Source: Roseomonas nitratireducens
GTDB taxonomy: Bacteria > Pseudomonadota > Alphaproteobacteria > Acetobacterales > Acetobacteraceae
Reading direction: 5' to 3'
Assembly (NCBI RefSeq): GCF_017813355.1
Contig: NZ_JAGIYZ010000001.1
Span: 310,001 to 374,000, forward strand
DNA: 64,000 nt
Shown here: positions 34,389-62,125 of the stretch, piece by piece
Layout: each line of letters opens with the position of its first letter
Position numbering within the stretch: the first letter of the stretch is position 1
Notes under the pieces: model-generated
The model's input: only the letters and a program-made list of their open reading frames with translations
Database searches by the model: none
Told to the model about the DNA's origin: nothing
Position numbers and translations under genes: made by a program

Positions 34389-34856
34389 TCAGGCGCTCCC
34401 CTTCAGGTCGTTGTCGATCGCGGTGACGAAGTCCCGCCATGGGTTGCGCGCCGTCGCCGCGCGCTCCGTCCCGTCCGGCATCTTCGCGTAGAGGCTGAGC
34501 ACGCCCTTCGCCCAGAGCGCGTCGAAATGCGCCGGTGATTGCAGGACATAGGCCGCGGTGCGGTCGAAGACGCCGTCCTTCACCTTCGGCATCACCTTGT
34601 AGAACCACCACCAGCAGCCGATCGCGAGCACGACGGTGCCGGCCCAGGCGCCGCCCTGCTCGGCGCCCATCGCGGCGAAGGGCGCCCCGCCCCAGCGCAG
34701 CGCGGCGAAGGAGGTCAGCAGGATCAGCCCCGCCGGCCAGACATTCTCCCAGCTGCGGTACACCGGCGAGCCCGGCGAGTTCATCTTACGGATATGCACG
34801 CCGAGCTTGACCTGCTCGGCATCCATCAGCCGCTTGAGCGTCTCGATCTCGGTCAC
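34389..34856 (-). CDS. Hypothetical membrane protein (155 aa)
   Basis: Not recognised. The protein has an N-terminal soluble helix (TEIETLKRLMDAEQVKLGVH), two hydrophobic segments (about residues 41-60, WPAGLILLTSFAALRWGG, and 70-88, WAGTVVLAIGCWWWFYKVM), and a soluble C-terminal half (FDRTAAYVLQSPAHFDALW). It is immediately followed by the GhrA-like gene on the same strand, suggesting cotranscription, but no functional link is known. Codon bias is normal for the region, which supports it as a real gene. Confidence 0.72.
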   Translation of the reverse strand: MTEIETLKRLMDAEQVKLGVHIRKMNSPGSPVYRSWENVWPAGLILLTSFAALRWGGAPFAAMGAEQGGAWAGTVVLAIGCWWWFYKVMPKVKDGVFDRTAAYVLQSPAHFDALWAKGVLSLYAKMPDGTERAATARNPWRDFVTAIDNDLKGSA

Positions 34857-34861
34857 GTTTA

Positions 34862-34992
34862 CTTGCCCTCAGACGGCGGGCGCCGGCCATCCGGCCGGCT
34901 TCCCTTCGCGCCGAGCGCTGGCGCGCCCAGCGCGGCGGGCGGTCTGGGCGCGGTCGCGCTTCGCGCTCGCGGATCGCGCGGCGCGCGATCCG
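34862..34992 (+). repeat. Dispersed structured repeat, copy A (131 bp)
   Basis: First of three related intergenic units. Hairpin 1 is GCCGGCC-ATCC-GGCCGGC (34882-34899). A middle hairpin GCGCTGG/CCAGCGC follows, then a 20-base block CGGTCTGGGCGCGGTCGCGC that is identical in copy B, and a final hairpin with 9-base arms at 34970-34978 and 34984-34992. Copies B (61905-62034, minus) and C (42902-42990, plus) share the first hairpin and the last one with compensating base changes. Here it lies 5' of the membrane-protein gene and 3' of nothing on its own strand, so its orientation opposes both neighbours. Confidence 0.75.
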
Positions 34993-35025: not shown

Positions 35026-36633
35026 TCATGTGCGCAGCCCGGGGGCGGCCTCGGTGCGGAGGTCGAAGGCGGCGGCCATCAGGGCGCGCGTGTAGGCTTC
35101 CCGCGGCGCGGCGACAAGCCGGGCGGCCTCCCCTTCCTCCACCACGCGGCCGTCCTTCAGCACGACGATCCGGTGCGCCATGGCGCGGACCACGCGCAGG
35201 TCGTGCGAGATGAACAGGTAGGCCAGCCGGTGCTTGGCCTGCAGCGCGCGCAGCAATTCCACCACCTGCGCCTGCACGCTGACATCGAGCGCGGAGGTCG
35301 GCTCGTCCAGCACCAGGAAGCGCGGCTTGAGCACGAGTGCGCGTGCGATCGCGATGCGCTGGCGCTGCCCGCCGGAGAATTCATGCGGGTAGCGTTCCGC
35401 CATCGCGGGATCGAGGCCGACTTCCTCGAGCGCCGTCGCCACCGCCTTCTCCCGCGCTGCCGAGCCCAGGCCTGGCTCGTGCACGGCGAGCCCTTCGCCC
35501 ACGATCTCGGCGACGCTCATGCGCGGGGACAGCGCGCCATAGGGGTCCTGAAAGACGATTTGCATGCGCCGACGCAGCGGGCGCAGCGCGGCGCGCGGCA
35601 GGCCCTGGATGGGCGTGCCCTCGAAGCGGATCGCGCCCGCGCTCTCCTCCAGCCGCAGCATCGCCAGGCCGAGCGTCGTCTTGCCCGAGCCCGATTCGCC
35701 GACCAGCCCGACCGTCTCGCCCTCATGCACCGTGACGGATACGCCATCGACCGCGCGCACATGGCCGACCACGCGGCGCAGCAGGCCGCGGCGGATCGGG
35801 AAATGCACGCGCACCTCCTCCCCGCGCATCACCTCGGCCGCGCCGTCGGCGACCGGCGGCGGCGCGCCGCGCGGCTCGGTCGCGATCAGCATGCGGGTAT
35901 AGGGGTGCGCGGGCGCGGCGAAGATATCCGCGACGCGGCCCTGTTCCACCGCGTGCCCGTCCTTCATCACCACGATGCGGTCGGCGTGCTTCTTCACGAT
36001 GTTCAGGTCGTGGGTGATGAGCAGCAGCGCCATGCCGAGGTCGCGCTTCAGCGTCTCGAGCAGTTCCAGGATCTGCGCCTGGATGGTGACGTCCAGCGCG
36101 GTGGTGGGTTCGTCCGCGATCAGCAGCTTCGGGTCGTTGGCGAGCGCGGCGGCGATCATCACGCGCTGGCGCTGCCCGCCGGACAATTGGTGCGGATAGG
36201 CGGCGAGCCGTTCCTCGGCATTGGGAAAGCCGGCGCGGCGCAGCAGCTCGATGACGCGCGCGCGCAGCGCCGCGCCGGCCATCGGGCGGTGCAGCGTGAT
36301 CGCCTCGCCCACCTGGCGCTCGACCGTGTGCAGCGGGTTGAGCGAGGTCATGGGTTCCTGGAACACCATCCCCGCGACGCCGCCGCGCAGCCGCCGCAGC
36401 TCGGCTTCCGGTGCCGACAGGACCTCCGTCCCGTCGAGCAGGATGCGGCCCGCCGGATTGGCCCCCGCGCCGGGCAGCAGCCGCAGGCAGGACAGCGCGG
36501 TGACCGACTTGCCCGAGCCCGATTCGCCGACCAGCGCCACCGTCTCCCCGCGCTCGACGGCGAAGGAGACGCCCTCGACGACGCGCTTGGCGCCGAAGGC
36601 GACCGAGAGGTTCTCGACCGTGAGCAGCGTCAT
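35026..36633 (-). CDS. yejF: Peptide ABC transporter, fused dual ATPase (YejF-like)
   Basis: A 535-aa protein with two complete ABC ATPase domains in tandem, as in YejF. The first (about residues 1-260) has Walker A GESGSGKS, signature LSGGQRQRV and Walker [13 protein letters not shown]; the second (about 280-530) has [18 protein letters not shown] and [12 protein letters not shown]. Each is followed by an oligopeptide-transporter-type extension. It powers uptake through the YejBE permeases. It overlaps yejE by 4 bases and is the last gene of the yejABEF order read leftward. Confidence 0.94.
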
Positions 36634-42151: not shown

Positions 42152-42895
42152 TTGCGCCCCATCCTCGTCATTCCCGCCCGCATGGCGGCCACCCGCCTGC
42201 CGGGCAAGCCGCTCGCCGACATCCATGGCCGGCCCATGATCGCCCATGTCATCGACCGGGCGCGGGAAGCCGGCATCGGCCCGGTCGCCGTCGCGGCCGG
42301 GGAACCGGAGATCGTGGACGCCGCCCGCGCCGCCGGCGCCGCTGCCGTGCTGGTGGCCGACGACGTCCCGTCCGGCACCGACCGCGTCCAGCGCGCCATC
42401 GCGGCGCTGGACCCCGAGGGCCGGCACGACGTGGTGGTGAACCTGCAGGGGGATTTCCCGACCATCGCGCCCGAGACGCTGCGCGCCGTGCTCGAGCCGC
42501 TGGCCGACCCGGCGGTGGACATCGGCACGCTGGTCTGCCCGATCGCGGATGAGGAGGAGGCGAACACGCCCTCCTTCGTCAAGGCCGCCTGCGCCTTCGA
42601 GGGCGCGGCCCGCGTCGCGCCCACGCTGTATTTCTCCCGCCTGCCGATCCCCTGGGGGGATGGGCCGCGCTGGCACCATATCGGCGTCTACGCCTATCGG
42701 CGCGCCGCGCTCGACCGCTTCGTCGCCCTGCCGGCGAGCCCGCTCGAGATGCGCGAGAAGCTTGAGCAGCTGCGCGCGCTGGAGGCGGGGATGCGCATCG
42801 CCGCGGCGCGCGTCGACCATGGTCCCTTCGGCGTGGACACGCCGCATGATCTCGAACGGGCGCGGAGTCTTCTGGCGTCGCGCGGTCACGCGTGA
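42152..42895 (+). CDS. kdsB: 3-deoxy-manno-octulosonate cytidylyltransferase
   Basis: A 247-aa nucleotidyltransferase activating KDO as CMP-KDO for lipid A core synthesis. The N-terminus RPILVIPARMAATRLPGKPLADIHGRPMI contains the nucleotide-binding motif, and NLQGDFPTIAPE, PWGDGPRWHHIGVYAYRR and EKLEQLRALE are the family's conserved stretches. The start is TTG 42152, preceded by GGAG, since the IPAR motif must be included; the next ATG would cut it. Copy C of the dispersed repeat begins 6 bases after the stop. The gene implies a Gram-negative LPS core. Confidence 0.94.
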   Translation: MRPILVIPARMAATRLPGKPLADIHGRPMIAHVIDRAREAGIGPVAVAAGEPEIVDAARAAGAAAVLVADDVPSGTDRVQRAIAALDPEGRHDVVVNLQGDFPTIAPETLRAVLEPLADPAVDIGTLVCPIADEEEANTPSFVKAACAFEGAARVAPTLYFSRLPIPWGDGPRWHHIGVYAYRRAALDRFVALPASPLEMREKLEQLRALEAGMRIAAARVDHGPFGVDTPHDLERARSLLASRGHA

Positions 42896-42901
42896 CCGCG
42901 C

Positions 42902-42990
42902 CCCTCGGACGGCGGGCGGCGGCCATCCGGCCGCCTTGCCTTCGCGCCCCGCACTGTCGCGCCCCCGGACCGAGGCGGCACCTCGGTTCG
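42902..42990 (+). repeat. Dispersed structured repeat, copy C (89 bp, internally deleted)
   Basis: This copy keeps hairpin 1 as GGCGGCC-ATCC-GGCCGCC (42918-42935) and ends with a 10-base stem CGGACCGAGG/CCTCGGTTCG (42966-42990). It lacks the roughly 42-base middle of copies A and B. Compared with copy A, both stems have changes on both sides that keep pairing. It lies between kdsB and pheA, in sense with both. Confidence 0.72.
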
Positions 42991-43015: not shown

Positions 43016-43873
43016 ATGACCGCCAAGACCATCGCCTTCCAGGGCCTGCCGGGCGCCTATTCGGACCTCGCCTGCCGCGCCGCCTATCCCGGCTGGACCA
43101 CGCTGCCCTGCCCGTCCTTCGAGGCGGCGATGGCCGCGCTGCGCGAAGGGCGCTGCGAACTGGCCATGCTGCCTTGCGAGAACTCGCTGGCCGGCCGCGT
43201 GCCGGACATCCACCGGCTGCTGCCCGAATCAGGGCTGTTCGTGATCGGCGAGCATTTCCAGCGCGTCGAGCACTGCCTGCTGGCGCCGAAGGGGGCGAGC
43301 CTCGCGACGCTCAAGCGCGCGCACAGCCATCCCGTCGCCCTGGGCCAGGTGCTGCGGCTGCTGAAGGACCGGAACCTCGCCCCGGTGATCGAGGCCGACA
43401 CGGCCGGCGCGGCGCAGCTGATCGTCGAGCGCGGCGGCATCGAGGACGCGGCCATCGCGTCGGAACTGGCGGCCGATATCTACGGGCTCGAGATCCTGCT
43501 GCGCAACGTGGAGGACGAGGCGCACAACACGACGCGATTCTACGTCATGTCGCGCGCCGCGACCTATCCGCCGGTCGCGGCGCCGAACACGGTCACCACC
43601 TTCGTGTTCCGCGTCCGCTCGATCCCGGCCGCGCTGTACAAGGCGCTCGGCGGCTTCGCGACGAACGGCGTCAACATGACGAAGTTGGAGTCCTACATGG
43701 TGGGCGGGCGCTTCGCCGCCGCGCAGTTCCTGTGCGACGTGGACGGGCACCCGGACAGCCCGGCGCTGAAGCGCGCCTTCGAGGAGCTGGAATTCTTCTC
43801 GAAGGAATTCCGGATCCTCGGCGCCTATCCGGCGCATTCCTACAGGCTGGAGCAGGCGGCGGCCGGGGATTGA
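43016..43873 (+). CDS. pheA: Prephenate dehydratase
   Basis: A 285-aa monofunctional prephenate dehydratase of phenylalanine synthesis. Catalytic-domain motifs are IAFQGLPGAYSDLACRAAYP, LAMLPCENSLAGRV and NTTRFYVM with the essential Thr-Arg-Phe; the C-terminal ACT domain starts near residue 195 (TTFVFRVRSIPAALYKALGGF) and has GVNMTKLESYM for feedback binding of phenylalanine. No chorismate mutase domain is present. ATG 43016 has AGGTG upstream. Expression with kdsB is possible across the 120-base gap that holds repeat copy C. Confidence 0.95.
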   Translation: MTAKTIAFQGLPGAYSDLACRAAYPGWTTLPCPSFEAAMAALREGRCELAMLPCENSLAGRVPDIHRLLPESGLFVIGEHFQRVEHCLLAPKGASLATLKRAHSHPVALGQVLRLLKDRNLAPVIEADTAGAAQLIVERGGIEDAAIASELAADIYGLEILLRNVEDEAHNTTRFYVMSRAATYPPVAAPNTVTTFVFRVRSIPAALYKALGGFATNGVNMTKLESYMVGGRFAAAQFLCDVDGHPDSPALKRAFEELEFFSKEFRILGAYPAHSYRLEQAAAGD

Positions 43874-59536: not shown

Positions 59537-61810
<2,274 letters not shown>

Positions 61811-61904: not shown

Positions 61905-62034
61905 CGGATCGAGGCCCAGTCTCGATCCGGGAGCGCAAGGCGCGACCGCGCCCAGACCGTCAGCGGCGCTCGGACCGCCAGCGCAGGGCGCGAAAGCCAA
62001 GCCCGCGGATGCGGGCGCCGGCGTCTGAGGCAAG
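61905..62034 (-). repeat. Dispersed structured repeat, copy B (130 bp)
   Basis: Minus-strand copy of the repeat family. Hairpin 1 is GCCCGC-ATCC-GCGGGC (62001-62016, read on the minus strand), and the final stem is CGGATCGAG/CTCGATCCG (61905-61913 with 61921-61929) on a 7-base loop. Against copy A both stems keep pairing through changes on both strands, while the ATCC loop is unchanged. It lies just downstream of tRNA-Leu, 95 bases before maeB, sense with both. Confidence 0.75.
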
Positions 62035-62039
62035 GAAAA

Positions 62040-62125
62040 TGGTGCGGTCGAGAAGATTCGAACTTCCACAGGGTTTCCCCTACCAGCACCTCAAGCTGGC
62101 GCGTCTACCATTCCGCCACGACCGC
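62040..62125 (-). tRNA. tRNA-Leu (anticodon GAG)
   Basis: An 86-base cloverleaf with encoded CCA. The acceptor stem is GCGGTCG paired with CGACCGC, the D arm has TGGCGGAATGGTAGACGC, the anticodon stem-loop is CCAGC-TTGAGGT-GCTGG with anticodon GAG, a long variable arm follows (GTAGGGGAAACCCTGT), and the T arm contains GTTCGAATC. The long variable arm and anticodon both indicate leucine. Confidence 0.96.

Follow-up and report, generated by a model that had tools for sequence, protein, structure and literature searches.

This locus raises the question of what kind of element can change the sequence of its stems and yet keep them paired. In the window, i.e. the whole 64,000-nucleotide stretch of Roseomonas nitratireducens DNA that we analysed, three sequences (copies A, B and C) had been described as one intergenic repeat, and a structured RNA, a REP-type mobile element and a binding site had been put forward to explain it. 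The description of the copies themselves was borne out by sequence and alignment: A, B and C are homologous, with coordinates, sequences and pairings as first described, and the arms of hairpin 1 and of the last stem are complementary in all three, with one G-U pair in C. As set out below, we consider the repeat likely to be intergenic, MITE-like and non-autonomous, and to have branched off in tandem form from a class-wide alphaproteobacterial family. The copies, their parts and their neighbours are as follows.

34389..34856, minus strand: gene at the 5' end of copy A (Pfam: no match at 1e-5)
34857..34866, plus strand: T-rich 5' leader of copy A (sequence; leader composition of first and inner copies)
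34862-34992, plus strand: copy A as a whole, homologous with B and C (sequence)
34867..34992, plus strand: unit core of copy A (nhmmer; covariance-model match of 95.1 bits)
34882..34899, plus strand: hairpin 1 of copy A (sequence; covaries in 155 copies)
34956..34966, plus strand: small hairpin GCGC-TTC-GCGC of copy A (sequence; alignment A2)
34970..34992, plus strand: terminal hairpin of copy A, 10-bp stem, loop GGC (sequence; stem covaries in 155 copies)
35026..36633, minus strand: ABC transporter ATPase gene at the 3' end of copy A (PF00005)
42152..42895, plus strand: cytidylyltransferase gene, ending 7 nt upstream of copy C (PF02348)
42903..42990, plus strand: copy C, a unit with an internal deletion, originally placed at 42902-42990 (alignment A1; 43.3 bits, E=0.002)
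42966..42990, plus strand: terminal hairpin of copy C, one G-U (sequence)
43016..43873, plus strand: prephenate dehydratase gene downstream of copy C (PF00800)
59537..61810, minus strand: malic enzyme / phosphate acetyltransferase gene past copy B (PF00390, PF03949, PF01515)
61905-62034, minus strand: copy B as a whole, homologous with A and C (sequence)
61905..61929, minus strand: terminal hairpin of copy B (sequence)
61906..62030, minus strand: unit core of copy B (covariance-model match of 117 bits)
62001..62016, minus strand: hairpin 1 of copy B, GCCCGC ATCC GCGGGC (sequence)
62040..62125, minus strand: tRNA-Leu (GAG), preceding copy B (ARAGORN)

The core measures ~127 nt in full-length copies. 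Hairpin 1 of copy A has the arms GCCGGCC (34882-34888) and GGCCGGC (34893-34899) around the loop ATCC (34889-34892), and that of copy C has GGCGGCC and GGCCGCC, likewise around ATCC. The last stem pairs CGGATCGCGC with GCGCGATCCG in A, CGGATCGAG with CTCGATCCG in B and CGGACCGAGG with CCTCGGTTCG, including the one G-U, in C, from which ~40 nt of the middle are missing in alignment A1. The leader of copy A directly abuts the GTG start codon of the minus-strand gene that ends at 34856, and the core of copy B starts 9 nt past tRNA-Leu.

The original prediction of a three-copy repeat proved far too low, since the genome (4.98 Mb in 57 contigs) gave at least 102 covariance-model matches at E<=0.01, with 150 of 21,299 first-look candidates scored and with many of the matching sequences already in the model's own alignment. 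A BLAST search of the genome returned 83 matches at E<=10, the last five of those listed (E of 0.002 and above) being weak or on the inverted arm. From 36 fetched regions and the window we obtained 82 copies in 42 clusters, with nhmmer E-values from 1e-31 to 4e-7, and these values, together with the covariation above a tree-based null that is described below, show that the family exceeds chance. Nineteen clusters are single units, ten have two, 11 have three, one has four and one has six, so that 23 of the 42 hold between two and six units arranged head to tail; the six-unit cluster counts two pieces flanking a run of N. At L051 3312-3411 the longest array is broken by such an assembly run of N, and its unit count may not be its true length. 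Thirty of the 40 spacings between units are 9-16 nt long and T-rich, six are 30-33 nt and four are slight overlaps of the extended ends, and a T-rich leader of ~10 nt precedes first and inner copies alike. Mean identity was 0.90 inside arrays (40 pairs) compared with 0.77 between arrays (2,375 pairs).

Two sets of copies were used to characterize the unit. Alignment A2 holds 68 of the 82 copies, 14 truncated, N-bearing or near-duplicate ones being left out, and in it the short stem ahead of hairpin 1 divides the copies into two subtypes, GGC/GCC and GCC/GGC, while the small hairpin has 99.6% of its cells paired and one pair changed on both sides. The larger set combines 70 of the 82 own copies with 87 of 112 covariance-model matches, i.e. 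157 sequences of which 155 are distinct, after we had removed the weakest matches, those that repeat one place and those of the window itself. Among these 155 copies the hairpin 1 region occurs in 71 distinct 19-nt versions, and the loop, which had been called fixed, is merely most often ATCC (99 copies), with GTCC in 23, ATGC in 11, ATTC and CTCC in nine each and four single variants. The near-invariant block of the unit is GGGCGCGGTCGCGC. In addition, a stub recurs in the 5' flanks of first copies (e.g. in L038 and L060) and in one inner gap of L052; it consists of the first ~16 nt of the unit, an AGTC-containing stretch and then a new leader, and its GAGTC is a GANTC (CcrM-type) site.

All distances to genes rest on calls made by a home-made codon-usage script trained on the fetched DNA, and by these calls the 42 clusters examined all lie between predicted genes. 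The unit is small (~127 nt), multi-copy and intergenic, as a MITE would be. In 26 of the 42 clusters no more than 13 nt separate its 5' end from a predicted coding region, compared with five clusters for its 3' end, and the 26 comprise 17 clusters behind a stop codon and nine that are reversed ahead of the start codon of an opposite-strand gene. Convergent genes flank 19 clusters and divergent genes three, whereas both genes are on the unit's strand in 11 and both on the other strand in nine; the 5'-side gene is thus on the same strand in 30 clusters and on the other strand in 12. Nine of these 12 are positioned 4-10 nt from the predicted start of the 5' gene, where most copies have a Shine-Dalgarno-like CTGAGG at the start of the unit. 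Given this observed position, the CTGAGG of a reversed unit could act as a Shine-Dalgarno sequence.

Copy number and occupied sites vary among congeners, and orthologous sites occur both filled and empty. At a gene pair which, from its sequence, we take to be hslV/hslU (Pfam finds AAA domains in the second gene), the carrier clade has one or two units in 13 of its 16 genomes, one of them degenerate, and the site is empty in G001, G003 and G004 and in 14 other loci compared, where the genes overlap as judged by eye. The fill, common to 13 genomes, is old and shows no sign of recent jumps there, which counts against a mobile element. A tree built from three gene fragments of 23 genomes, with low support at several nodes, places empty genomes among filled ones, and loss, recombinational replacement or repeated gain must therefore be assumed. 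At the site of copy A, the model found units in G000, G006, G010 and G019, a shortened unit was seen by eye in G017, and a doubtful remnant without a model match is present in G226 and perhaps G001, the other loci compared looking empty. A CBS gene carries units in this genome only, among the loci compared; the array starts one base past the stop codon, and the sequence beyond it resembles, by eye, the short spacer of non-carriers. The site of copy B holds one unit here and two in G017. In 14 non-carrier loci compared the tRNA stands ~40 nt from the gene, and the 420 nt examined in 14 other carriers held no tRNA.

The family is much wider across the Alphaproteobacteria than the window suggests. 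Within the genus, 14 of 22 other genomes matched (G002 with a single weak match) and eight did not; three of 16 genomes from other families had one weak match each, and in the order 23 of 200 genomes, from five of 51 genera, matched at E<=1e-4, the named carriers among the matches listed being Roseomonas, Neoroseomonas and Falsiroseomonas species and two MAGs. One copy is matched across its first 43 nt by Azospirillum plasmids, and another across ~45 nt by Niveispirillum and Nitratireductor. A model of this 45-nt module at the start of the unit (R2, built from 17 sequences of this genome and seven from Azospirillum, Niveispirillum and Nitratireductor plasmids) gave matches at E<=0.001 in 37 of 385 alphaproteobacterial genomes (the present one counted), which the table labels assign to 24 families and 30 of 277 genera; the match in G390 is not independent of R2, whose sequences include a Niveispirillum plasmid. 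Nine other genomes hold at least 14-16 module matches each, 16 candidates per genome having been scored. The exact type I pattern was too strict as a class-wide probe and found its own genome only (1 of 385). Phage records gave no match to one typical copy, and a literature search by title and abstract opening returned no recognizable description of the repeat or the module, which is no proof of absence.

Tandem forms of the module also occur in G520 (period ~115 bp) and in G485 (100 bp, L404). In the latter (G485:C26, L404 735-1544), five module matches with the 100-bp period start 12 nt behind a tmRNA gene. On the Nitratireductor thuwali plasmid p1536_1 (L368 1201-1244) a module copy lies, by eye, between two apparent tRNA genes, ~11 nt from one of them. 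One congener (G015, L116) has no BLAST matches to the tandem form and yet has the short-loop form. Other Acetobacteraceae have both the class-type short-loop form and the window-type enlarged-loop form, and because they hold both, the Roseomonas-type units are tied to the class-wide elements.

Outside the Roseomonas type, the element has recognizable ends. The module makes up the core of a longer element in G443, G260, G033 and G520. Most of these elements measure 144-148 bp, and their ends resemble TACCRGCGAGCC...ATGA in inverted orientation. Matched inverted ends were found in 40 of 98 distinct class-wide copies, by an end cut-off that prefers ends starting with TA, and 58 copies are without them; 18 of the 40 have identical flanking triplets. 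TNA is present on both sides of 25 copies and its middle base is equal in 18 of these, where 6.1 were expected by permutation (p ~1e-4), with the qualification that copies within one genome share ancestry, although each is in its own site. Duplication of TNA is known for some insertion-sequence groups. Inspection by eye revealed neither terminal inverted repeats nor target duplications in Roseomonas-type copies, and no target-site duplication was identified for the window copies; what links these units to the TNA elements is the 45-nt module, the order of the hairpins and a common GCGCGGTCGCGC motif.

Pairing in A2 extends to 94.6% of cells, and both sides have changed in 148 cells compared with 55 in shuffles. 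For the 155 copies, which come from this and related genomes, we used a home-made null in which substitutions are re-laid on the tree. Hairpin 1 and the last stem covary above this null: seven column pairs had E below 0.05, three in hairpin 1, three in the last stem and one that is no base pair. This last one, columns 31-36, is read as a mark of the two subtypes. A pairing of CCTCAGAC with GTCTGGG was also discarded, being 90.8% paired with covariation not above shuffles. The paired changes noted from three copies are thus confirmed, but the claim that structure is selected is not secured by them, because G-U and A-C cells are nearly equal in number (12 vs 7 in hairpin 1 and 14 vs 9 in the last stem) and the changes are mostly double transversions. 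By parsimony, hairpin 1 has undergone ~51 double-transversion-type changes, three double transitions, 11 changes that gain or lose a G-U and 30 that gain or lose a mismatch, and the last stem 38, seven, 13 and 45 respectively, with unpaired intermediates in both. Two results oppose this doubt, namely the 80 G-U against 26 A-C cells of the short outer stem P1 and the excess of transversions (656) over transitions (539) in unpaired columns. The transversion-rich unpaired columns weaken the argument from double transversions, and the pairing data would fit arm-to-arm copying, DNA-level pairing and RNA-level selection alike.

A structured RNA family, i.e. a 3' or 5' UTR element, maybe with a terminator-like last stem, that is kept by RNA pairing and the useful copies of which multiply, would account for the covariation of hairpin 1 and the last stem, for the 30 clusters with a same-strand 5' gene and for the G-U excess of P1, which favours the plus strand. 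The T-rich linkers after inner units, with up to 70% T at a position, would also suit it, but past the last copies positions 2-10 have only ~26-40% T, and in 12 clusters the 5' gene is encoded on the opposite strand. The near equality of G-U and A-C cells in hairpin 1 and the last stem and the ratio of double-transversion-type to G-U changes in hairpin 1 count against it as well, although the latter is tempered by the transversion-rich unpaired columns, and the repeat has no Rfam match at gathering level. The single match at gathering score in the whole window is the tRNA, the 14 class-wide loci gave tRNA and tmRNA genes only, and a known RNA family was rejected since in the stretches searched no other Rfam family reached its gathering score, the lower matches there being far below threshold. 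A sub-threshold match to the Twister-sister ribozyme (L418 1003-1089, plus strand; 29.4 bits against a gathering score of 34) overlaps a module copy that follows a tRNA, on the strand opposite to the copy; none occurred in the other 13 loci, and we treated it as chance. Taken together we judge a structured RNA to be unlikely. A set of binding sites, kept because a DNA-binding protein needs them, is very unlikely: the mostly intergenic location and the near-invariant GGGCGCGGTCGCGC block would fit such sites, but the 71 versions of the hairpin 1 region and the differences in copy number and occupied sites among congeners would not.

Among the three original suggestions the mobile element was the best, although of MITE rather than REP type. 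REP or BIME elements mobilized by a RAYT (Y1) transposase are likewise intergenic palindromes of high copy number (~100 here), and the 19 clusters between convergent genes would be in keeping with them, but the repeat differs in its larger unit and direct repeats, the dimensions and alternating order of REP elements being unlike ~127-nt head-to-tail units. The REP-associated transposase that had been suggested as a check was sought with the PF01797 (Y1 transposase) profile, which had no match at E<=0.001 in this genome and none in the other 15 repeat-bearing genomes of the genus, so that no partner transposase was identified; five of 14 control genomes matched. A single genome among 35 of the genus (this one counted) did match, G225, the hslV/hslU-type site of which is empty and the genome-wide repeat content of which lay outside the search scope. 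With no Y1 transposase in any genome where the repeat was seen, and with relatives that have TNA duplications and inverted-repeat ends, REP/RAYT was set aside as very improbable. In class, size and GANTC, the named family that comes nearest is CIR, the CcrM-associated intergenic repeats of Caulobacter, Brucella and other alphaproteobacteria, ascribed to Chen and Shapiro 2003 (via PMC2229807 and PMC10969869), with which our repeat was compared by description only. That it is CIR or a branch of it is a possibility we hold tentatively. CIR are described as intergenic, ~110 bp long and two-armed, with GANTC in a terminal loop (PMC2229807), so class, intergenic location, approximate size (~100 bp) and hairpin arms agree. 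Of 42 first copies, 13 have a GANTC in the 40 nt that precede them (~1.5 expected from its density), compared with five of 40 inner copies. In the class-wide set, 25 of 100 cores have one in the adjoining 45 nt on the 5' side (7.4 expected), and the 3' arm contains one in 16 of 100 copies (10.7 expected), but GANTC lies inside just one of 82 Roseomonas-type units (~9 expected) and in none of 100 class-wide cores. In addition, the relatives described here have inverted-repeat ends and TNA duplications, whereas for CIR the table lists no TIR and marks duplication with a question mark (PMC2229807). The class-wide family is possibly related to CIR. The enterobacterial ERIC/IRU/RU-1 elements (127 bp, a 7-bp TIR, duplication, TA at the termini and an orientation-dependent effect) are alike in length and in being structured, intergenic and likely non-autonomous, but they belong to other bacteria, and head-to-tail arrays go unmentioned in the available part of that source (PMC2229807). 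Pneumococcal BOX is similarly a modular repeat of variable tandem number, but as described it repeats the inner box B between boxA and boxC (PMC3049150), whereas here whole units are repeated.

The MITE-like tandem offshoot that we favour would have arisen as follows. The unit, a ~10 nt T-rich leader and a ~127 nt core with several hairpins, shares its first 45 nt and general layout with elements across the Alphaproteobacteria, which in some other families are ~145 bp long, with imperfect inverted-repeat ends (TACC...GGTA) and an apparent 3-bp (TNA) duplication on insertion. Because of these ends and duplications, a transposase acting in trans, although none was found, probably moved the element. 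In the Roseomonas/Neoroseomonas branch, where no inverted-repeat ends were seen, the middle loop is enlarged and copies persist at gene edges, with the 5' end mostly against a coding region, whose stop codon it follows or, in reversed units, whose start codon it adjoins. The layout and the higher identity within arrays show local multiplication into head-to-tail arrays, perhaps by slippage or unequal recombination aided by the hairpins. The stems may be kept paired by arm-to-arm copying in replication or by selection against broken hairpins, two routes that the data do not separate, and a cellular effect, if any, would be local, on the ends and translation of neighbouring mRNAs.

In kind, the repeat is ordinary, a MITE-like intergenic repeat; what is unusual is that it sits at gene edges, forms head-to-tail arrays and has stems that are strongly paired yet variable. 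A more far-reaching reading is that a class-wide hairpin MITE-like family docks at stop and start codons, splits overlapping coupled genes and gives the downstream gene a new ribosome-binding site, forms arrays independently in at least three lineages (periods of about 100, 115 and 139 bp) and relies on arm-to-arm template switching to keep its stems paired, which would produce covariation without RNA-level selection. We regard this as doubtful, the more so because unpaired columns are transversion-rich too. Covariation is widely read as a sign of functional RNA, and ~100 copies in one genome would let an origin in DNA copying be tested; the natural filled and empty sites at conserved gene pairs would likewise make an effect on coupled translation measurable. 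The family may also join scattered alphaproteobacterial repeats, perhaps including CIR, as one family with identifiable ends and a target preference.
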